From positions 39,119,469 through 39,183,468 of the forward strand of contig OZ020485.1 of assembly GCA_963971405.1 (NCBI GenBank): a DNA stretch of 64,000 nt, read 5' to 3'. Numbering within the stretch: the stretch's first letter is position 1; each line of letters opens with the position of its first letter. The stretch comes from Psococerastis gibbosa. Its lineage: Eukaryota; Arthropoda; Insecta; Psocodea; Psocidae. A model generated the notes under the pieces. The model ran no database searches, was not told where the DNA came from, and saw nothing but the letters and a program-made list of their open reading frames with translations. Both the position numbers and the translations under genes were made by a program. Below are positions 1,813 to 64,000 of this stretch, one piece after another.

Positions 1813-2124
1813 TTTTAAAAAATCCCAAAGAAACAAAATACATCCCAATAGCATCCCTTTACGCTATCTTCCCATTGCAGTAGCGCAGTGCTATGAAAAC
1901 AACACAAGAAGCGGGAAGCCCCACAGTTCTGCACGTGGCTTCTTAGTCAGCAGCGAGAAATATCGAGCGAAGCAAGCCCCTCAATTCCAGAAATACAGCT
2001 CATATTTCACTGTTTTTTTAGTGATATTTAACACGGATTAAAGCGGGGTAATCGCCCTTACACGCATTCTCCCCTATATAATACTACCTAGTAAAAACGC
2101 GCCTGCAATATCGCTGTATCTTAT
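1813..2124. other. No gene recognised
   Basis: Unassigned sequence between SINE-A and the tandem array. It holds no convincing open frame. Confidence 0.5.
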
Positions 2125-3085
2125 GACAGCTCACTCGGCTGAAGAGGAAAAATTCAGAGTAATAACAAATGACTTCACAATAATTCCAACATTTGTTGAC
2201 GTTACAGTGACTGTGTCAGGGGGCAGGGGGAGTATATCAATTCTCTGAAATATTTTTGAGCAACGAAAATTCACAGTATCTTGTTATACGAGTAATGTCC
2301 TATTCTTACATTGTTTTACCCTTCTTACTTTTTAATTGAGGCTTGCAATTTTTTACTTTTTTCATTCCTTCATTAATCTTTTGGCAGCTCAACCGGTTGA
2401 AGAGAAGAAAATTCAAAGCAAAAACAAATGACTTCACGATAATTCCACCATTTGTTGACGTTACAGTGACTGTGTCAGGGGGCAGGGGGAGTATATCAAT
2501 TCTCTGAAATATTAGTATTTATTAATATTAATAAAGTTCACAGTATCTTGTTATACGAGTAATATCCTATTCTTACATTGTTTTACCCTTCTTACTTTTT
2601 AATTGAGGCTTGTAATTTTTTACTTTTTTCATTCCTTCATTTCTTCATCAATCTTATGGCAGCTCAACCGGTTGAAGAGAAGAAAATGCAGAGTAATTAC
2701 TAATAACTTCACAATAATTCCAACATTTGTTGACGTTACAGTGACTGTGTCAGGGGGCAGGGGGAGTATATCAATTCTCTGAAATATTAATATTTATTAA
2801 TATTAATAAAATTCACAGTATCTTGTTATACGAGTAATATCCTATTCTTACATTGTTTTACCCTTCTTACTTTTTCATTGAGGCTTGTAATTTTTTACTT
2901 TTTTCATTCCTTCATTTCTTCATCAATCTTATGGCAGCTCAACCGGTTGAAGAGAAGAAAATGCAGAGTAATAACTAATAACTTCACAATAATTCCAGCA
3001 TTTGTTGACGTTACAGTGACTGTGTCAGGGGGCAGGAGGAGTATATCAATTCTCGGAAAAACAAAAATTCACAGTATCTTGTTAT
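2125..3085. repeat. Tandem array, ~275-bp unit, four units
   Basis: Units start near 2125, 2384, 2659 and 2934 at GCAGCTCAACCGGTTGAAGA or a variant. The last full spacings are 275 bp and the first is 258 bp. Each unit holds a conserved GACGTTACAGTGACTGTGTC segment followed by a G-rich stretch, then AT-rich filler. Units 2 and 3 are nearly identical, unit 1 is diverged, and the last one decays near 3085. Short open frames in it are fragments of the repeat. It is a minisatellite or short satellite block. Confidence 0.9.
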
Positions 3086-4705: not shown

Positions 4706-4905
4706 AGTTAGAATAAATGACGAAGCAGTAGAATCTGGAATGATAGGCCGTGGTCTTTCTGAGAGCGTACTTCCAAACGTTTCCTCAACATCTGTGGTCA
4801 CAGTTGCTGCTGAGCCTCCGAGATCTAAGTCTACGCAATCCCACTGAAGATGTCGACCGCAGATGTCGACAAAACGTTTAGAAGTAGACTTTCAGAACGA
4901 CCACG
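4706..4905. repeat. Fold-back family G, decayed copy
   Basis: Two inverted arms (AAACGTTTCCTCAACATC on the left, complement of the right arm near 4850-4885) surround a short centre with GCTGAGCCTCCGAGAT. The same layout is clearer at 51220-51488 and 60414-60702. The right arm keeps the hammerhead-like order, but G12 of GAAA has become A. Confidence 0.65.
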
Positions 4906-5221
4906 GTGTATCCGTGCACCGTCAATGTGGTGTTGGGTGATTGGGTGTCGCAACTAGGTAATTGTCTGGCTTTATATTTAATGGTGAAGAATTTGTCTAA
5001 GCTCTTCAAGTTAATATGGGATTATTTTGAAGATGACTGCGAAATGCCGCCCTTGACTTATCAGTATGCTTTAACAGCTGGTTTCCCCTTTCAAATTGCT
5101 CGAAACATGCCATTTTGTAATTTTGATGGTGATCATTTGCAGGTATAATTCTTTCTCATTTGTTCCCTCCCTACACAAGAATGGTGAATTCAATTCCCCC
5201 AAAACACACACACACAGTTTA

Positions 5222-5572
5222 GCTTGTTTGTTTTCCAACGACTGTTTTCAGTATTTCTGCTTTAAGCAACCCTGTCAGCCTGGCGGGGGAGTGAGTGAGT
5301 GAGTTTCTTAACTTGAGGCAGACTTGAGGCTTAACTTGAGGGCAGACTCCTTTACCTCGGGGAGAAAGGGAGTTAACTGACAGTGTGGACCTCCTGATTA
5401 TAGTGGATTCCGAATCACTTGGGGAACATGGTAAAGTCACACGATTAAATCGGAGGTGACCTGGACTCGACACTCACGTAGACTGACTGGTATAGTCTCA
5501 ACGTATTATCATGTCCCACCATGTTCCCCTGCCAAAGCTGGGCACACTACCAAGTTAGCCGCGGTACCGACG
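5222..5572 (-). mobile_element. SINE-H copy 1
   Basis: One of eight copies of a ~360-bp family. In sense orientation the 3' end reads GCTGAAAGCAGGCGTTAG-like and is followed by an (AAC)n tail. The central block TGGTTCGGAATCCACTATAA is highly conserved, here with one change. The tail of this copy is eroded. The body gives an open minus-strand frame (SSPGHLRFNRVTLPCSPS) that recurs in other copies but has no recognised domain. Confidence 0.75.
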
Positions 5573-11863: not shown

Positions 11864-12160
11864 CAAAACTTAGTGTTTTATAAAAACTTGTTAAAACTAG
11901 GTATAACCCAAATTAGTAAAACCCAAAATAATTGTTAAAAAATTAATTTTGTCTAAGGAACCCACTAGTGTTAGTATAAAACCCTGAGCGCTTTCGGCAA
12001 GAACTGCCATCTACAGAGGGAAACTCACTAGCACAGTTACACCTTATCTGCGATTTGAGACTTGCTCAAATCGAGGAGAAGATGCGTTAGTTTTTATAAA
12101 ACACTAAGTTTTTATTTTTTGTTTATTAAAATGAAATACCACGAAGTCACGAGTAATTTA
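11864..12160. mobile_element. Fold-back family K copy 1
   Basis: AAAACTTAGTGTTTTATAAA near 11865 is the inverted complement of a stretch at about 12090-12112, enclosing ~225 bp. The copy continues to CACGAAGTCACGAGTAAT near 12158. Related copies are at 51990-52165 (partial) and 63803-64000 (runs off the window). The interior carries the hammerhead-like motif at 11982-12020. Confidence 0.65.
11982..12020 (-). ncRNA. Hammerhead-like RNA motif in family K (candidate)
   Basis: On the minus strand: stem I CCCU, core CUGUAGA (one change from CUGANGA), an extra U, stem II GGC...GCC, then GAAA, a self-complementary AGCGCU, C at the cleavage position, and AGGG closing stem I. The order of parts matches a type I hammerhead ribozyme except for the inserted U and the changed core base. 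A stem III without a loop would need two molecules to pair, as is known for some Penelope-like and retrozyme hammerheads. Activity is unknown. Confidence 0.4.
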
Positions 12161-15193: not shown

Positions 15194-16256
15194 CAGAGGC
15201 GGACACAGCGACCGGCACTGGGGGCAATTGCCCCCCCCCCCTCCCTTTGGAAGGCAGTTATATTGTTTGCCTCTAAAATCCAAGTGTTAACTGCACTCAA
15301 AATGCGGAAAACCCCACTATTTTAGCCCTATTTTGTGAAAAATTCTCCCGGGGGGACCCCCTTGTGCACAATTTTATTAATTCCCTGTAAAATAGAAACC
15401 TTATTGCTCTGAAAATGAGTAAAACCCAAATATTTCAGACCTATTTTTCAAAACAAAATCTCTCAAGTGTTAATTGCACTCAAAATGCGTAAAACCCCAC
15501 TATTTTAGCCTTATTTTTTTTAAAAATTCTCCCGGGGGGACCCCCTTGTGCACAATTTTATTAATTCCCTGTAATATAGAAACCTTATTGCTCTGAAAAT
15601 GAGTAAAACCCAAATATTTCTGACCTATTTTTCAAAACAAAATCTCTCAAGTGTTAATTGCACTCAAAATGCGTAAAACCCCACTATTTTAGCCTTATTT
15701 TTTTAAAAATTCTCCCGGGGGGACCCCCTTGTGCACAATTTTATTAATTCCCTGTAATATAGAAACCTTATTGCTCTGAAAATGAGTAAAACCCAAATAT
15801 TTCAGACCTATTTTTCAAAACAAAAATCTCTCAAGTGTTAATTAACTGCACTCAAAATGCATAAACCCCCACTATTTTAGCCCTATTTTTTTAAAAATTC
15901 TCCCGGGGGCGACCCCCGGGTCCTCCTTGTGCACCATTTTATTAATTCCCTGTAATATACGAGTAGAAACCCTATTGCTCTGAAAATGAGTAAACCCCAA
16001 TATTTCAAGTTTTTTCTCCCGGGGGAGACCCCCGGGCCCCCCATGCCCATTCTCCGAACCCTCTGGCTCATGCGCAAAGGCCACTAAGGTCATTAATGTT
16101 AAAGCCGCTTACGTCCATGAGAATGGCTTTCCCCATTTTATACACTTTTATGAAAATGGGTGGAGTGGCACCAAATTATACACCGCCCCTTCGAAAACCT
16201 ATCGTTACGCTACTGACAAGTGCCTTCCCCTTTCATGAGGTCTGGGACCGCCTCTG
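15194..16256. mobile_element. hAT-like non-autonomous element (1,063 bp) carrying a tandem array
   Basis: The exact 8-bp direct repeat CTTATGCC sits at 15186-15193 and 16257-16264. The ends are CAGAGGCGG... and ...CCGCCTCTG. Both features are the hallmark of hAT superfamily insertion. There is no transposase frame. Most of the element is the ~184-bp tandem array. The right part (about 16075-16256) matches 21180-21400 closely, so the two elements are related. Removing the element restores a continuous GCATT-CTTATGCC-GTTGC sequence. Confidence 0.9.
15281..16045. repeat. Tandem repeat, ~184-bp unit, about four copies
   Basis: CAAGTGTTAAxTGCACTCAAA recurs at 15281, 15464, 15648 and 15832, giving spacings of 183, 184 and 184 bp. 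Each unit also contains TCCCGGGGGGACCCCC, a strong palindromic G/C block, and two AAAACCC-type segments. The array is wholly inside the hAT-like element, so it has been amplified within a mobile sequence. Confidence 0.9.
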
Positions 16257-32821: not shown

Positions 32822-33168
32822 TTGTTTGTTTTCAAACGCCTACTTTCAGCATTGCTGCTTTAAGCAACCCTGTCAGCCTTTCAGTCCGTTTCTTAACTTG
32901 AGGCGCCCTAAGGGGAAACCCCGGGGAGAAGGGATTTGACTGACAGGGTGGGCCTCCCGATTTTAATACATTCCGAACCACTTGGGAAACATAGTAGAGT
33001 CACAAGTTTAATTCGGAGGTGACCAGGACTCGACACGCACTCAGACTGACTACTGCTAGTCTTGGCACATTATCATGTCCTGCCAACGCAGTGCACACTA
33101 CTAAGTTTGCTGCAGTTTGGAACATACTCTGTTCTCGAGGATTCAACTGTGTATGGCCGTGTGGCAAT
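32822..33168 (-). mobile_element. SINE-H copy
   Basis: From TTGTTTTCAAACGCCTACTT to the CTGTTCTCGAGGATTCAAC region. The conserved GAACCACTTGGGAAACATAG core is present. Confidence 0.75.
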
Positions 33169-43012: not shown

Positions 43013-43727
43013 TCATGGAGGGTCGGCGGCAGAGCTGCGGCGATTCCAGGCGTCCCCCCTTGTGAGCCCGGTTTCTTGCAGGTCGCTTACAATTTTCCTC
43101 TCCAGGGTGAGCTTTGGGCGCCCACGTGCTCGGCGTCCAGGTACCATCGCCTCTCCCACTCTTCGTATAAGCGCTGATGCCTCTCTTCTTTGCACTTGTC
43201 CCCACCAGCTGAGCCTCTTCCCTCTTAGTTTTTGGACCACGTCCGTTGTTCGCATTTCTTCCCGAATGTCCTCGTTTCTGCGCCTGTCATTTAATGTTAC
43301 GCCACATGCCCTCCGCAGCATCCTCATCTCCGCTACGTGGATCACTTGTTCTTCGCGTTTACGCACGGCCCAACACTCAGCGCCATATATCATACATGGC
43401 CTGACCACTTGTTTGTATATGCGACTTTTCAATTCCTTTGGCATCCTTCTGTCAGTCAGAACCGCGGACATCTCTCGAAACTTGGCCCACCCCGCAGCAG
43501 TACGCGCCTTCACATCGTCATCGCAGCCTCCGTTTTCGCCAATCGTGCTGCCTAGGTACTTAAATTTCCCTACTTTGTTTAGCTGATGGTTAGCAACGCT
43601 TATGCTACCGGGAGTCTGCTTAACGCACTCCATGTATTCTGTCTTGCCTCTGTTGACCTTTAGGCCTTCGTCCTCCAGCGTTTTCACCCATTTGGCTAGC
43701 TCAGCTTCAGCTTCCTGTCGGCTTTCT
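43013..43727 (-). pseudogene. RTE-like reverse transcriptase C-terminal part (~238 codons, open)
   Basis: Open minus-strand frame ending at a stop at 43013-43015. It reads LKVNRGKTEYMEC, FKYLGSTIGENGG, GWAKFREMSAVLTDRRMP, then ELKSRIYKQVVRPCMIYGAE, VAEMRMLRRACGVTLNDRR and GRRARGRPKLTLERK. These are the thumb and post-RT blocks of RTE-type non-LTR retrotransposons. The palm with the catalytic FADD motif and the endonuclease are missing, so it is 5'-truncated and inactive. The frame reaches upstream of the first ATG, to about 43727 (ESRQEAEAELAKWVK). The AAAAAGTAAAAAGTAAG-type tail follows. The intact frame suggests recent insertion. It is not a host gene. Confidence 0.85.
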
Positions 43728-44065
43728 GTACTTATTATTTATATATTTAAGATATGTAAGATGCAGCTAAATATGTACAGATTTGGGGCTGTCATGATTT
43801 TTAATGACTATGTTACTATCCGTTTCTTAACCGTCTGTAGCAACTAAGTTTCTTTATCCACTCGCCTCAGGACCTCAGCATTATGGACAACAATTGGGAC
43901 TACATAACATTTCATCATTCGTAATCTAAGGTACAACCGCAGATTCAAACCCCGAAGTACTTTCTGCATTTTGATGGAAAAAATTCGAGCTTGTTCACTG
44001 CGGCTGCCAATTTCTTGACTCACCTCCCACTCATTGTTTACAATGCACTCGAGGTCCCGGTAATG
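43728..44065. other. No gene recognised
   Basis: Nothing recognised. Confidence 0.4.
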
Positions 44066-45656: not shown

Positions 45657-46020
45657 AATAAGGCCAACGGCCTTACCATGTTGAATCCACTAGAGCAGAG
45701 CATGTTTCAAACTACGGTAAACTTGGTACTGTGCACAGCGTTGGCAGGGGACTATGGTGGGAGATAGTAACGCACTGTGACTATACCAGTCGTCAGTCTG
45801 CGTGCGTGTCGAGTCCTGGTCACCTCCGATTTAATCGTGTGACTTTACCGTGTTCCCCAAGTGGTTCGGAATCCACTATAATCAGGATTTTCAGTCAACT
45901 CCCCTTTCCCCGAGGTGTACCTAAACTTAACAAACAGACTCACTTCGCCCGCCAGGCTGACAGGGTAGCTTAAAGCAGAAATGCTGAAAGCAGGCGTTAG
46001 AAACAACAACAACAACAACA
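45657..46020 (+). mobile_element. SINE-H copy, sense, with (AAC)n tail
   Basis: The only sense-strand copy, showing the 3' end: GCTGAAAGCAGGCGTTAGAA followed by AAC repeated eight times. The head has GGGAGATAGTAACGCACTG and GTGTCGAGTCCTGG, one base from a tRNA B box (GGTTCGAGTCC). A tRNA origin is therefore likely but not proven. Confidence 0.75.
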
Positions 46021-48761: not shown

Positions 48762-51219
48762 TATGGTATGATTAATATCAATCGCCATAGTAGACCCTCA
48801 GCATTGGAACACTTATAAAAATCGAATAAACTCGGTGATTTACTCATACAAGTTTTCGAAAAAAAAAATAAACAAAAAAAATCCAAAGGTCATTCTATCG
48901 TGGTCGGGTTTCTAGATTTTTGAAATAATATACTTTGTGAATTTTTTTTAAATGAGTCGTTACAAAAAAGCTCCTGTAGGGTTACTTACTACTTTGTATC
49001 GGGTATCTTACATTACAGTTCCTGCTGGCACAAAATAAAGTAGATGGAGTTCAAAATGTAGAGATACAGTAGGTATTAAGTCCAAAAAGGAATACCGTAC
49101 TAGGCATAATATTGAATTATATGTACCCTTTCCTCGCTTCCACTTTAGGGAGTACAATAAACTCTGTCATGACGGTCTGCAGACCACTTAGGCCGACAAT
49201 GTGTCAATTATGATCACTACATATTATTTAGCTTACAGTATGATTTTAATGTACGACAAAGTTAATGTGAAACTTGGGCATTCATGTTTTTCACAAGTTG
49301 TTGAATTCTCGACTTAATGTTCTTGTTAATAGCAACTCTTAAGTCACTGCAGGCATTCCTGCGGACCATTTGCCAGGGTCCCACCAGTGTGGAACCACTG
49401 TGTTAAACAAATTCACATTGTGACCATGATATTTAGCACATCATAACAAGACAAAGGGCTGATAGTTTTGAAACTAAAAGGGGATGAATATAAAAATGTG
49501 GCATTTCCCCAGGCAGATTGAAACCTCAAGAAAGAGAACACTTGAGCTCTTTGCTGAAGATATGGGGAAAATAAATATCATCTGATTTTTCAAACTACTG
49601 AAAAACGTATGTTTCTCATCAAACAATGCCATGAGATTCAAATAAAAATGACAGCCGAATGAAAAATAAAATTTCTTCGGAAGATGAAAAAGGTTAAATT
49701 TTTCCCCTCGTCATTTTCATGTGAGATTCCAATTTGTTTCCACACACAACTAGTTTCATATTTATCACACACACCTCTCTCTCTCTCTTATTTCGCAAAG
49801 GGTCAACCTCTCGATCCCCCCCCCCTCCCCATACCTTCTGCACCTACCCTGAATCCTTTTCTCTCTGAGAAATCCTATATACGTATTTTCTCACTACGTA
49901 TAGATATCTAATACCCACCCCGAAGCTATTCCTAAAATAAAATATGTGAACGAAATATATACCTGTCCTTTTCAAGCGCTTCCGGGGTAATATAAACTAC
50001 CCATTGCAACTTCCCTTATTTCAAAATTTACCTATTGAAGGCCTGAACTCTGGAGAATTTTGAAAGCGAATTGAGTACTGAGTAGTGAAACTGAAATTTG
50101 GATCTCCAGCTCTAAATGTCAGGTACATACTGTAGGTATTACTTTTTTATAATGCTGATATCCTATGGTACATTTATTTATCTATATCTATATACAGTAG
50201 CTAGGTATATAATTGACGCGTATTTCTTGTACTAGTTTGTTGTACCTACCATTTGTAAATGACTAAATGTTATTTTTTTCTTTCCTTAACACTGTGTTTA
50301 AAAGCAGTAGGTCTGCTCTTTCATACAAAAATTGACCTGATGTATTGTCATACAATATATATATTCCTCATGATCCAAACATTCCTAATGTTTCAAGTAT
50401 TCCAATCCTTCCAAACGTTGCAAGTATTCCAAATGTTCCAAACGTCCCATGCGTTCCATATATTATTTGGTCGCATTTGCAATAAGTTATTGCATTGTGT
50501 CAAAATGAAATGTTTCCGGGCCTTAAAAATGCAAGTTACTTTACACAACCAAAACGATTTGCAACCAAAATGCAACCTAATACTACATTGCAGCAATATC
50601 TCTATGGTTTACTGGTAACTTAAGAGATGTTATGTAATACTGTACTAGCACTAGTAGTATTATAGATTTTATTTCTTCATTCGCATTGTCCTTTATGCCA
50701 TGTTTCCTGTCAGGTAATGCGTAGATCTTTGAATAATTTGTCAAACATGACACCAAAATATTTGACGGTGTAATTTTAGGTAATTTTGAATTTTTTACGA
50801 TCTGCATATACAAATTGCTCGGGGAATAAGTTAGCAGTATAGTTGAAATTTATTCATAAACCTCTGTTGATGATCCATGTAGTATACGAGACGCAAATAA
50901 AAGTGCAAATAGTGTCAATATAAAATATTTTACGCCATCCACATAAAATGGCTTTGAAGACAGGTTCCCTAGGCTTTACTGTTGGAGGAGTAGGTACAGG
51001 AATTTAAAACCAGCATAATATACTCCTTAAAATCTAAATTATTTAATGTACGACTCAGTTTAACATATTTTTAGTTTTAGTATGTACTATACTTGAAGGT
51101 GCTATTCCTACGACGTAGTACAATACGGGTTATTTGTAAGAGTGGACCAAAAGGCCCAAAGTAAAGACAAGTTTCATCCATTATTTCTTCCTTTCTACAA
51201 TACAGAAACAAAAACTTAG
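48762..51219. other. No gene recognised
   Basis: AT-rich. GGTCCCACCAGTGTGGAACC followed by ACTG near 49378-49402 looks like a hAT right end, but the partner was not found. A short CT run occurs at 49772. A 119-codon frame at 50259-50618 is biased toward F, Q and M through a degenerate TTCCAA repeat at 50375-50460 and is not a gene. Confidence 0.35.
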
Positions 51220-51488
51220 TGATGAAGCAGTCAAAACCGGGATGATAGGCCGTGGTCATTCTGAAAGCGTACCTTCAAACGTTTCGTCAACGTCTGCGGT
51301 TGACATCATCAGTGAAACTGCGTAGACACGGTTGCTGCTGAGCCTCCGAGATACAATCTTAGAAGTCTACGCAGTTCCACTGAAAATGTCAACCGCAGAT
51401 GTTGCCGAAACGTTTGGAAGTACGCTTTCAGCGCCTATCAGCCCAGATTTCACTGTTTCCTCATTAAACTCCGGCCGTGAAAGCATAT
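51220..51488. repeat. Fold-back family G copy
   Basis: Inverted arms at about 51225-51330 and 51365-51470 surround GCTGCTGAGCCTCCGAGATA. Each arm contains AAACGTTT, CGTCAACxTCTGCGGTxGAC and CAGTxxxACTG segments. The left arm carries the best hammerhead-like motif (51273-51317, minus strand). Confidence 0.75.
51273..51317 (-). ncRNA. Hammerhead-like RNA motif in family G, best copy (candidate)
   Basis: On the minus strand: stem I UUUCA, core CUGAUGA exactly, an extra U, stem II GUCAAC / GUUGAC (six Watson-Crick pairs), GAAA, CGU (with the last A a self-complementary ACGU), U at the cleavage position, and UGAAG closing stem I. The single deviation from a type I hammerhead is the inserted U. 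Compared with 60573-60617, pair 3 of stem I changes from C-G to U-A, a compensatory change. Activity has not been shown. Confidence 0.45.
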
Positions 51489-51504
51489 TTTGTAGTTATA
51501 AAAA

Positions 51505-51850
51505 CTTAGCGTTTTGCAGCATTTCTGCTTTAAGCAACCCTGTCTGCCTGGCGGGGGGAGTGAGTCTGTTTGTTAACTTGAGGCACCCTAAGGGCAGACT
51601 CCTTCGCCTCAGGGAGAAGGGAAGTTGACTGACAGGGTGGACCTCCTGATTGTAGTGGATTCCGAACCACTTGGGGAACATGGTAAAGTCACACGATTAA
51701 ATCCGAGGTGACCAGGACTCAGCACGCACGTAGACTCACTGGTATAGTCTCAGTGCATTATCATGTCCTCCCATGTTCTCCTGCCAACGCTGTGCACACT
51801 ACCAAGTTTTGCGCAGTTTGAAACACGCTGTGCTCTCGTGGATTCAACTT
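51505..51850 (-). mobile_element. SINE-H copy
   Basis: GCATTTCTGCTTTAAGCAAC to TCGTGGATTCAACTTGG, full core. It lies directly after the family G copy. Confidence 0.8.
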
Positions 51851-51867
51851 GGCAAGTTGGAAACTTG

Positions 51868-51908
51868 TTAGTCTGATGATGGTGTAAAACCGAAACAGCT
51901 GTAACTGA
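51868..51908 (+). ncRNA. Hammerhead-like RNA motif, separate family (candidate)
   Basis: Stem I UUAGU, core CUGAUGA, extra U, stem II GGU-GUAAA-ACC, then GAAA, self-complementary ACAGCUGU (with the last A of GAAA), A at the cleavage position, and ACUGA closing stem I. Layout as at 51273-51317 although the surrounding sequence is unrelated. Stem II is short. Confidence 0.35.
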
Positions 51909-53231: not shown

Positions 53232-53590
53232 AGAACAATGTGTTGTTGTTTCTAACGCCTGCTTTCAGCATTTCTGCTTTAAGCAACCCTGTCAGCCTGG
53301 CGGGGGGAGTGAGTCTGTTTATTAACTTGAGGCACCCTAAGGGCAGACTCTTTCACCTCGGGGAAAGGGGAGTTGACTAACAGGGTGGACCTCCTGATTA
53401 TAGTGGATTCCGAACCACTTGGGGAACATGGTAAAGTCACACGATTAAATCGGAGGTGACCAGGACTCGACTTATACTGCCTGAGCGAGTTATCATGTCC
53501 CACCAGGTTCCCCTGCCAACGCTGTGCACACTACCAAGTTGCCGCAGTTTGAAACATGCTCTGCTCTAATGGAATCAACATGGTAAGGCC
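53232..53590 (-). mobile_element. SINE-H copy with GTT repeat end
   Basis: GTTGTTGTTTCTAACGCCTG marks the AAC-tail end in reverse. The copy is full length and well preserved. Confidence 0.85.
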
Positions 53591-54109: not shown

Positions 54110-54310
54110 TGGAGTATGTATAACACTGACATTAAATGAACTTTTGGTTGAAGTTATAAACTAAATTAAAGGATATATAAAAAAACTGGGCTTGGCGGGG
54201 CTTGTGGTCGAGCGGTTAAGACGACGCCCCGGTTAGGCGTAGATCGTGGGTTCGAGTCCCTCCAAGCCCAGTTTTTATATGTCCTTTAATTTCGTTTATG
54301 ACATTTGGAA
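54110..54310. mobile_element. SINE-C unit with collapsed inverted ends
   Basis: AAATTAAAGGATATATAAAA at the left is the inverted complement of TTTATATGTCCTTTAATTT at the right. Between them is a complete tRNA-like unit on the plus strand. TTGCAGTAAAATATGGAGTA leads into it, as at 56540-56570. Confidence 0.7.
54198..54269 (+). tRNA. tRNA-like cloverleaf inside SINE-C (probably not a functional tRNA)
   Basis: 72 bases: acceptor GGGCTTG pairs fully with CAAGCCC, D arm GTC...GAC, anticodon stem ACGCC/GGCGT, T arm GTGGG-TTCGAGT-CCCTC with one mismatch. The seven-base anticodon loop is CCGGTTA, so position 33 is C instead of the near-universal U. It occurs as a repeat, so it is most likely a tRNA-derived SINE head. 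Confidence 0.45.
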
Positions 54311-55416: not shown

Positions 55417-55795
55417 TGTGTTGTTGTCGTTGTGTTGTTGTTTCCAACGTCTGCTTTCAGCATTTCTGCTTTTAAGCAACTCTGTTGGCCTGGCGAGGGG
55501 AGTCCGTTTTTAACTTAAGGGAGACTCTTTCACCTCGGGGGTAGGGGAGTTGACAGACAGGGTGGACCTCCTGATTATAGTGGATTCCGAATCACAGGGG
55601 GAACATGGTAGAGTCCCACAATTAAATCGGAAGTAACCAGGACTCGACACGCACGCAGACTGACTGGTATAGTCTCAGCACGTTATCATGTCCCACCATG
55701 TTCCCCTGCCAACGCTGTGCGCACTACCAAGTTTGCCGCAGTTTGAAGCATGCTCTGCTCTCATGGATTCAACATGGTAAGGCCGTTAACGCTAT
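55417..55795 (-). mobile_element. SINE-H copy with GTT repeat end
   Basis: GTTGTTGTCGTTGTGTTGTTG start and GGATTCAACATGGTAAGGCC end. The most complete minus-strand copy, with a few deletions near 55500. Confidence 0.8.
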
Positions 55796-56284: not shown

Positions 56285-56326
56285 GTTGGTGAAGTTATAA
56301 ACGAAATTAAAGGATATATAAAAACT

Positions 56327-56398
56327 GGGCTTGGCAGGACTCGAACCCACGATCTACGCCTAACCGGGGCGTCGTCTTAACCACTCGACCACAAGCCC
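56327..56398 (-). tRNA. tRNA-like unit in left arm of SINE-C dimer
   Basis: 72 bases on the minus strand: GGGCTTG pairs with CAAGCCC, anticodon stem ACGCC/GGCGT, loop CCGGTTA. Position 33 is C. Probably a SINE head. Confidence 0.4.
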
Positions 56399-56697: not shown

Positions 56698-56769
56698 GGG
56701 CTTGTGGTCGAGCGGTTAAGACAACGCCCCGATTAGGCGTAGATCGTGGGTTCGAGTCCCGCCAAGCCC
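56698..56769 (+). tRNA. tRNA-like unit in right arm of SINE-C dimer
   Basis: 72 bases: acceptor GGGCTTG pairs with CAAGCCC, T arm GTGGG-TTCGAGT-CCCGC with one G-T pair, anticodon loop CCGATTA. Position 33 is C, so this is unlikely to be a normal decoding tRNA. Confidence 0.45.
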
Positions 56770-56810
56770 AGTTTTTATATTATATCCTTTAATTTCGTTT
56801 ATATTGCTGT

Positions 56811-60399: not shown

Positions 60400-60413
60400 T
60401 ATTGTAGGTTAAT

Positions 60414-60702
60414 GAAGAACCAGTAGAATCCGGGCTGATGGGCCGTGGTCAAAATGAAAGCGAACTCCCAAACGTTTCGTCAACATCTGCGGTCCACATC
60501 TTTAGTGGAACTGCGTAGAATTCTAAGATTGTATCTCGGAGGCTCAGCAGCGACTGTCCGACAGTCTGACAGTTCCACTGAAGATGTCGACGGCAGATGT
60601 TGACGAAACGTTTGGGAGTTCGCTTTCATTTCGACCACAGCCCATCAGCCCGGATTCTACTGGTTCTTCATTCGACTCCGGCCGTGAAAGCCTTTGCTGT
60701 TA
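60414..60702. mobile_element. Fold-back family G, best copy, with 14-bp target duplication
   Basis: TATTGTAGGTTAAT occurs at 60400-60413 and 60703-60716, so this is an insertion with a 14-bp target duplication, longer than typical DNA transposons make. Inverted arms at 60420-60525 and 60570-60665 surround TATCTCGGAGGCTCAGCAGC. The right end reads CGGCCGTGAAAGCCTTTGC. Both arms contain a hammerhead-like motif, facing outward. A 14-bp variable duplication fits a retro-type mechanism (LINE or Penelope-like) by established knowledge, but no protein is encoded. Confidence 0.75.
60573..60617 (+). ncRNA. Hammerhead-like RNA motif in family G (candidate)
   Basis: Stem I UUCCA, core CUGAAGA, extra U, stem II GUCGAC / GUUGAC (one G-U pair), GAAA, CGU, U at the cleavage site, and UGGGA closing stem I with one G-U pair. 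The opposite arm (60465-60509, minus) has the same order with CUAAAGA as its core, a change that would be expected to inactivate a hammerhead. Confidence 0.4.
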
Positions 60703-60776
60703 TATTGTAGGTTAATTTATTTTATAGTAATATTATATAATATATATTACCGTATAGTATTTACATTTAATGCACA

Positions 60777-63802: not shown

Positions 63803-64000
63803 TAGATTACTCGTGACTTCGTGGTATTTCATTTTAATAAACAAAAAATAACAAAAACTTAGAGTTTTAGAAAAACTTGTTATAACAACCCGAATTAATA
63901 AGACCCAAATAATCGTTAAGAAATTAACTTTGTCTAAGAAACCCACTTGTGTTAGTATAAAACCCTGAGCGCTTTCGGCAAGAACTGACATCTACAGAGG
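63803..64000. mobile_element. Family K copy, cut by window end
   Basis: ATTACTCGTGACTTCGTGG, AAAACTTAGAGTTTTAGAAA and AACTTTGTCTAAGAAACCCA match 11864-12160. CCTGAGCGCTTTCGGCAAGA near 63964 shows the hammerhead-like segment begins here. Its stem II is weaker than at 11982 because GAC replaces GCC. The element continues beyond the window. Confidence 0.6.

Follow-up and report, generated by a model that had tools for sequence, protein, structure and literature searches.

The window, that is the whole 64,000-nucleotide stretch of Psococerastis gibbosa DNA analysed here, comes from a 409-Mb genome and holds four places at which the same parts follow one another 5′ to 3′: a stem I strand, the core CUGANGA (CUGUAGA at site 4), a single U, a stem II hairpin and GAA, and then a loop-less, self-complementary A...U stem III, a single H residue and the strand that closes stem I. 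In all four, the extra U lies between A9 and stem II (U10). The first-pass annotation had described this hammerhead-like order with its extra U, and direct reading reproduces it with exact coordinates; its CUGANGA-like core stands for sites 1 to 3, whereas site 4 has U for A at position 6.

Sites 1 and 2 belong to one family, A. Site 1 (51273..51317, minus strand) reads UUUCA-CUGAUGA-U-GUCAAC/GUUGAC-GAA-ACGU-U-UGAAG from 51317 to 51273, with stem I at 51317-51313/51277-51273, the core at 51312-51306, the extra U at 51305, stem II at 51304-51299/51291-51286, GAA at 51285-51283, the stem III palindrome ACGU at 51282-51279 and H17 at 51278; translation from its AUG (51306-51304, minus) gives MSTADVDETFEGTLSE followed by a stop. 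It lies in a head-to-head element (51210..51509) of inverted pLTR arms, bounded by a 10-bp duplication, AAAAACTTAG, at 51210 and 51500, and the hammerhead of the right arm (51380..51410, plus) has a core decayed to CTGAAAA (G8 to A). Site 2 (60573..60617, plus strand) reads UUCCA-CUGAAGA-U-GUCGAC/GUUGAC-GAA-ACGU-U-UGGGA, with the core at 60578-60584, the extra U at 60585, stem II at 60586-60591/60599-60604, ACGU at 60608-60611 and H17 at 60612, and the frame from its AUG (60584-60586, plus) stays open for 43 codons. The head-to-head element around it (60400..60716) has arms at 60411-60513 and 60570-60672, the right one longer by a tail, and a 14-bp duplication, TATTGTAGGTTAAT, at 60400 and 60703. 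A third, more decayed head-to-head copy of family A lies at 4716..4912.

Site 3 represents family B (51868..51908, plus strand) and reads UUAGU-CUGAUGA-U-GGU/ACC-GAA-ACAGCUGU-A-ACUGA, with the core at 51873-51879, the extra U at 51880, stem II at 51881-51883/51889-51891, the stem III palindrome ACAGCUGU at 51895-51902 and H17 at 51903; its AUG (51879-51881) is directly followed by GUG UAA. Site 4, a hammerhead-like fold of family C carrying A6 to U (11982..12020, minus strand), reads CCCU-CUGUAGA-U-GGCA/UGCC-GAA-AGCGCU-C-AGGG from 12020 to 11982, with the core at 12016-12010, the extra U at 12009, stem II at 12008-12005/11999-11996, stem III AGCGCU at 11992-11987 and H17 at 11986; a UAG precedes its AUG (12010-12008). 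A further copy of family C, truncated where the window stops (63887..64000, minus), likewise reads CTGTAGA.

Around these sites the window contains six long copies of a SINE-like repeat of about 345 nt (51514-51856, 53263-53587, 55455-55781, 45672-45989, 5245-5556 and 32844-33148), three tRNA genes (54198-54270 plus, 56326-56398 minus and 56698-56770 plus) inside homologous arms of about 116-128 nt in both orientations, tandem arrays at 2118-3059 and 15281-16007 with units of 275 bp and 184 bp, and a 241-aa RT-like ORF (43013-43738, minus), probably a retroelement fragment judging from an RVT_1 score of 16.4 bits, below the Pfam cut-off. One SINE-like copy (51514-51856) ends just before site 3. 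A SINE origin of site 3 was rejected, as the other copies of the repeat align at most to about 51856 and family B shares the head-to-head arrangement of A and C; we regard the adjacency as coincidental.

All three families recur across the genome. The 35-place pattern of family A has 1,990 exact matches (955 + 1,035), and those of families B and C have 313 and 2,114 matches within 3 mismatches, with 0 matches for each backward-pattern control; more stem II types are present among the 100 listed matches of the general pattern. Beyond the fold, 350-nt stretches from one copy of each family are not strongly similar to one another (lowest E between families 0.025), in line with the earlier statement that at least three families share no other sequence. 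Median pairwise divergence is 3.8% in family C versus 26.8% in family A (30 copies each, flanks included, those of C fetched with a stricter pattern). Families A and C both look recently active, because many RT stretches in both are 97-99% identical.

A strict descriptor (CUGANGA, an insert of 0-1 base, stem II of at least 3 pairs, GAA, a palindromic A...U stem III, H and stem I of at least 4 pairs) found sites 1, 2 and 3 in the window, each with one inserted base, and nothing in 200 dinucleotide shuffles; site 4 falls outside the descriptor because of A6U. A covariance-model check had been proposed with the first-pass annotation; the models of Rfam release 15, applied at gathering thresholds and at permissive ones reaching E 10, matched no hammerhead in the whole window or in 8 of the 97 fetched loci. 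The proposed search for compensatory changes, run in part, found them in both stems I and II and left the hammerhead reading unrefuted. The stem I strands of each of six compared copies pair with their own partners over 4-6 bases and, when swapped between families, over 0-1, and stem I of site 1 differs from other family A copies by a C-G to U-A double change. For stem II, 12 distinct hairpins of equal length, hand-picked from the matches listed, had 91.7% of cells paired versus 70.6% in shuffles, 11 cells changed on both sides versus 4.3, and a covariation of 0.519 versus 0.120 (0/500 in each case), and two of the five measures, double-change pairs (2 vs 1.8) and pair types (5 vs 4.4), did not exceed the shuffles (425 and 244 of 500).

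The palindromes of stem III vary between families, as ACGU, the eight-base form of site 3 and AGCGCU, and every one is self-complementary, as needed for dimers, in agreement with the earlier remark that a loop-less stem III suits dimeric action. In cofolding, the minimum free energy structure of two site 3 strands was a double hammerhead with an 8-bp stem III (-21.9 versus 2 x -7.0 kcal/mol); that of the other five cofolding inputs was a different fold containing no double hammerhead. The energy models pair U10 with G12 in some folds, to which we give no evidential weight.

The coding content of the copies points to Penelope-like elements (PLEs). The family A ORF carries a YVDD RT motif (RVT_1, E 1.4e-7, above the Pfam cut-off) and runs into the hammerhead, inside which its last codons, STEDVDRRC and a stop, fall, and the family C ORF matches both RVT_1 (2e-13) and GIY-YIG (1.3e-5) above the Pfam cut-offs. 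The two proteins are 31% identical over 345 aa, the GIY-YIG stretch included, and this alignment to family C is what the GIY-YIG assignment in family A rests on. PLEs, whose single ORF has a telomerase-like RT followed by a GIY-YIG endonuclease, share this arrangement of RT and GIY-YIG. Families A and C are accordingly classed, on the protein evidence, as Penelope-like retroelements, and family B, in whose copies read no ORF was seen, is placed among PLEs through its fold and head-to-head layout.

Direct and inverted pLTRs, an optional tail on one arm and short target duplications, which likewise characterize PLEs, are present in the dissected copies of A and C. Among 300 listed places of the three families, neighbouring motifs at most 3.5 kb apart are 39 times head-to-head, 3 times direct and never tail-to-tail (head-to-head and direct: A 13 and 1; C 16 and 2; B 10 and 0), at spacings of 33-2950 nt; the listed matches of the TTA form of family B include 2 tail-to-tail neighbours, 2.1 and 2.3 kb apart, and 6 head-to-head. 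Seven genome copies were picked as head-to-head pairs, and in each of them the two arms match at 98-100% identity over 307-1107 nt and differ in length. Both window copies and 5 of these 7 are bounded by direct duplications of 10-14 bp, the shared flanking words being just 6 and 8 bp in L094 and L096, and random stretches of the same size share a word of at least 10 in 41 of 2000 trials. The extra tail on one arm occurs in the 60400-60716 copy and in five dissected family C copies. Inverted pLTRs, a tail and duplications have been described for rotifer Penelope, for which self-priming is the preferred mechanism (PMC3846280). Another study shows a PLE enzyme that cuts and extends both DNA strands (PMC11167929), and such a process could let two reverse-transcribed arms meet at their 5′ ends.

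Among known systems, the sites resemble the minimal type I hammerheads of PLEs (Cervera and de la Pena 2014; Lunse et al. 2017), which, as described in PMC7761336 and PMC6155905, likewise lie in pLTRs, lack the helix III loop and loop-loop contacts, and cleave as dimers; family C differs from them by A6 to U. Of the two links suggested in the first-pass annotation, the one to Penelope-like elements holds at the protein level for A and C, and the one to retrozymes does not. Metazoan retrozymes, as PMC7229834 presents them, also place a type I hammerhead in animal genomes, but they are small tandem repeats yielding RNAs of about 170-400 nt and have no RT, whereas the elements here encode an RT-endonuclease (A and C) and are mostly head-to-head, and the retrozyme reading was therefore rejected. 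Elsewhere in the genome, five insert-less CTGACGAG...CGAAAC motifs lie at G000:C2:42581569-42582489, the last four 177-179 bp apart; the stem II there is unconvincing, and the layout resembles a retrozyme array.

Measured against the minimal type I hammerhead (CUGANGA...GAA, A15.1-U16.1, H17 and three stems), families A and B carry every part, with U10 in addition, and family C departs at A6. The extra U itself is common to all three families, and genome-wide counts confirm that it is shared as had been proposed. With the core pattern CTGANGA, insert, G, 8-24 bases and CGAAAC, each search having its own control, an extra T was found 6,684 times (control 33), an extra C 139 times (control 18), an extra A 129 times (control 55) and no insert 136 times (control 86); an extra G is listed with A and C as rare, and several of the insert-less matches among those listed resemble family A cores in which G replaces T. 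The extra-T counts are of copies and not of independent events, family A supplying many. De la Pena and Flores are said to have treated the extra nucleotide of the CChMVd hammerhead in a study of 2001. The insert in our families is likewise a single nucleotide between A9 and G10.1. An insert at this position is already known in hammerheads: according to PMC3705267, an additional A separates A9 from G10.1 in the CChMVd (+) hammerhead, and a U there raises trans-cleavage 3-4-fold, C and G being harmful. Both systems thus have the insert at the identical core position with U as a favourable letter, and they differ in that CChMVd is a plant viroid RNA with a natural extra A and no coding role, as viroids encode no protein. 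The first-pass annotation had suggested that the extra U could mark a variant or a degenerate form under some other constraint; that constraint is most likely a start codon.

A9-U10-G10.1 spells AUG, with A6 at the -3 position of the initiation context. One tandem copy of family C has its cores at C1:40671451 and 40674327 and its AUG at 40671457, and the match of a 180-aa query at 40672174 is in frame with this AUG (717 = 3x239) within an uninterrupted 923-aa frame. The length of 923 aa corresponds exactly to a frame that starts at the AUG and stops 99 nt short of the following core, the spacing also found in L091, and the frame starts no earlier than the hammerhead AUG because the preceding codon is a stop (TAG/UAG). 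Further open frames of 923 and 922 aa are found at C14:44448506 and C14:8187734, and in another family C locus, L065, the pLTR and tail stay open for the 65 codons that follow from the AUG, which happens in only 39 of 5000 shuffles. In family A, the cores of a tandem copy at C1:5716225 and 5718854 (minus) flank an uninterrupted 910-aa frame, in which the AUG lies, by arithmetic, 28 codons from the beginning and 882 from the stop. In 12 of 34 family A rows, which stand for 10 different places since two are counted twice, the AUG comes after exactly 28 open codons free of Met; a Met occurs upstream in 5 of the 34 rows. The hammerhead AUG is thus the first AUG of the long frames of both families, with frame starts placed by coordinate arithmetic.

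Several observations qualify the coding signal near the AUG. An opening over 39 codons in family A is frequent by chance (1502 of 5000 shuffles), its +1 frame is open longer than the AUG frame (median 53 vs 45 codons), and a later in-frame AUG is present in the family C frame, within the tail. Among variant alleles, synonymous changes are not in excess over the first 62 codons in family C (10/84; 24.6% expected), which gives no support for purifying selection there, and are slightly in excess over the N-terminal codons in family A (7/15). In three family A loci (L017, L023 and L093), the ORF of one unit overlaps that of the following unit, its stop codon starting 17 nt downstream of the A in the second AUG; termination-reinitiation could be possible with such an overlap.

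In family B, the stop-form hairpin with AUG GUG UAA, GGTGTAACACC, has 105 exact copies and the open TTA form, GGTGTTACACC, has 128, and no long ORF was found at the AUG of either form, a single open-form copy that was read stopping after 10 codons; among the fetched rows, picked by likeness to the stop form, 41 of 42 read MV and a stop. Each hairpin is the reverse complement of the other, and the two can occupy the two arms of one head-to-head pair (for example C2:18361315 minus and C2:18361472 plus). The hairpin may flip, and the AUG frame through it stays open only with the TTA form.

In family C, U stands at position 6 in all of the best 100 listed matches, and just 13 otherwise exact 30-mers have another letter there, G or C in the four listed with letters; A6U at site 4 is therefore the usual state of the family and not decay of a single copy. 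An A6C hammerhead is slow, at under 0.1 per min (PMC3088659), and A6U is therefore expected to impair cleavage. Family C with A6U nevertheless keeps copies with intact 922-923-aa frames and RT stretches 97-99% identical, so that either cleavage is dispensable for mobility or the CUGUAGA core still works. The first alternative is allowed by the in-vitro data of PMC11167929, in which the anole hammerhead showed no activity unless protein was present and was dispensable for insertion, catalytic mutants inserting normally.

Based on these findings, we propose as the probable explanation that PLE pLTRs carry, at these sites, hammerhead motifs of the minimal type I that lack a stem III loop and whose U10 is kept mainly as the U of the start codon of the RT-endonuclease ORF. 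Since no long ORF was found at the AUG of family B, a catalytic benefit of U10 may exist as well. A start at stem II has a precedent in the Anolis Poseidon PLE PAc, whose ORF likewise begins there according to PMC11167929, the only item among the listed titles and abstracts of open-licence papers that bears on a PLE hammerhead together with a start codon; compared with PAc as described there, the AUG can here be assigned to A9-U10-G10.1 in two families that have diverged, and it is linked to the extra U.

That the sites are chance resemblances in repeats has next to no likelihood: the core is short and the single copies in the window are decayed, but the shuffles yielded nothing, the genome counts of 1,990, 313 and 2,114 face controls of 0, and chance would require families whose stems do not covary, the opposite of what is seen. 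A high copy number is expected of any repeat, and it is the layout common to different families that counts. An explanation in which U10 is kept since it improves catalysis of a hammerhead devoid of loop-loop contacts, the AUG being incidental or secondary, is considered unlikely. It accords with the 3-4-fold faster trans-cleavage given by U, and the harm done by C and G, at the CChMVd insert position (PMC3705267), with the rarity of an extra A, C or G in this genome and with the retention of U10 in family B, where no long ORF was found. It does not account for two families, alike only in fold and distant protein, that both begin a long ORF at this AUG, and the retention of U10 in family C despite A6U makes rate optimisation unlikely there.

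A reading in which selection no longer maintains the fold for ribozyme activity, so that it persists through overlapping coding constraint and as a structure near the site of RT initiation, also seems rather doubtful. Such an overlap is seen in family A, where the C-terminus of one ORF lies over the N-terminus of the next and the same DNA reads STEDVDRRC and a stop in one frame and MSTADVDETFG in another; the U6 of the best 100 listed family C matches, found together with long frames and highly similar RT stretches, and the normal insertion of catalytic mutants in vitro (PMC11167929) point the same way. However, families with no other strong similarity share the core, stem I, stem II and a stem III palindrome, which coding alone does not predict.

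From the structure, element context and frame arithmetic observed here, we infer cleavage and a switch that might operate as follows. The RNA of a tandem element would be translated from the AUG inside the hammerhead, and the ribosome would unfold the fold. In a full-length RNA with two tandem hammerheads, the palindromic stem III strands could pair into a double hammerhead able to cleave, and pairing and cutting would take place when ribosomes are absent, perhaps with help from the element's protein (compare PMC11167929). As the predicted cut at H17 lies 22-26 nt downstream of the AUG, the cleaved RNA would have no start codon, and translation and cleavage would be alternative fates of one RNA. 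We offer tentatively, as a possibility, that the PLE ribozyme core holds its own start codon with A6 at -3, that the RNA is either translated or cut, which separates messenger from replication template, and that the A6 to U change of family C puts UAG before the AUG, with the cut lost or weakened and mobility kept.

In conclusion, a many-copy family with a fixed A6U and intact long ORFs offers a natural test of whether mobility requires cleavage at all, and, as the Rfam models missed all copies scanned in the window and 8 loci, annotation of PLE hammerheads may undercount them. PMC7761336 describes PLE hammerheads as having no known role. If the extra U is the U of the start codon, ribozyme and ORF would be locked together base for base, and that role would be the control of translation versus cleavage.
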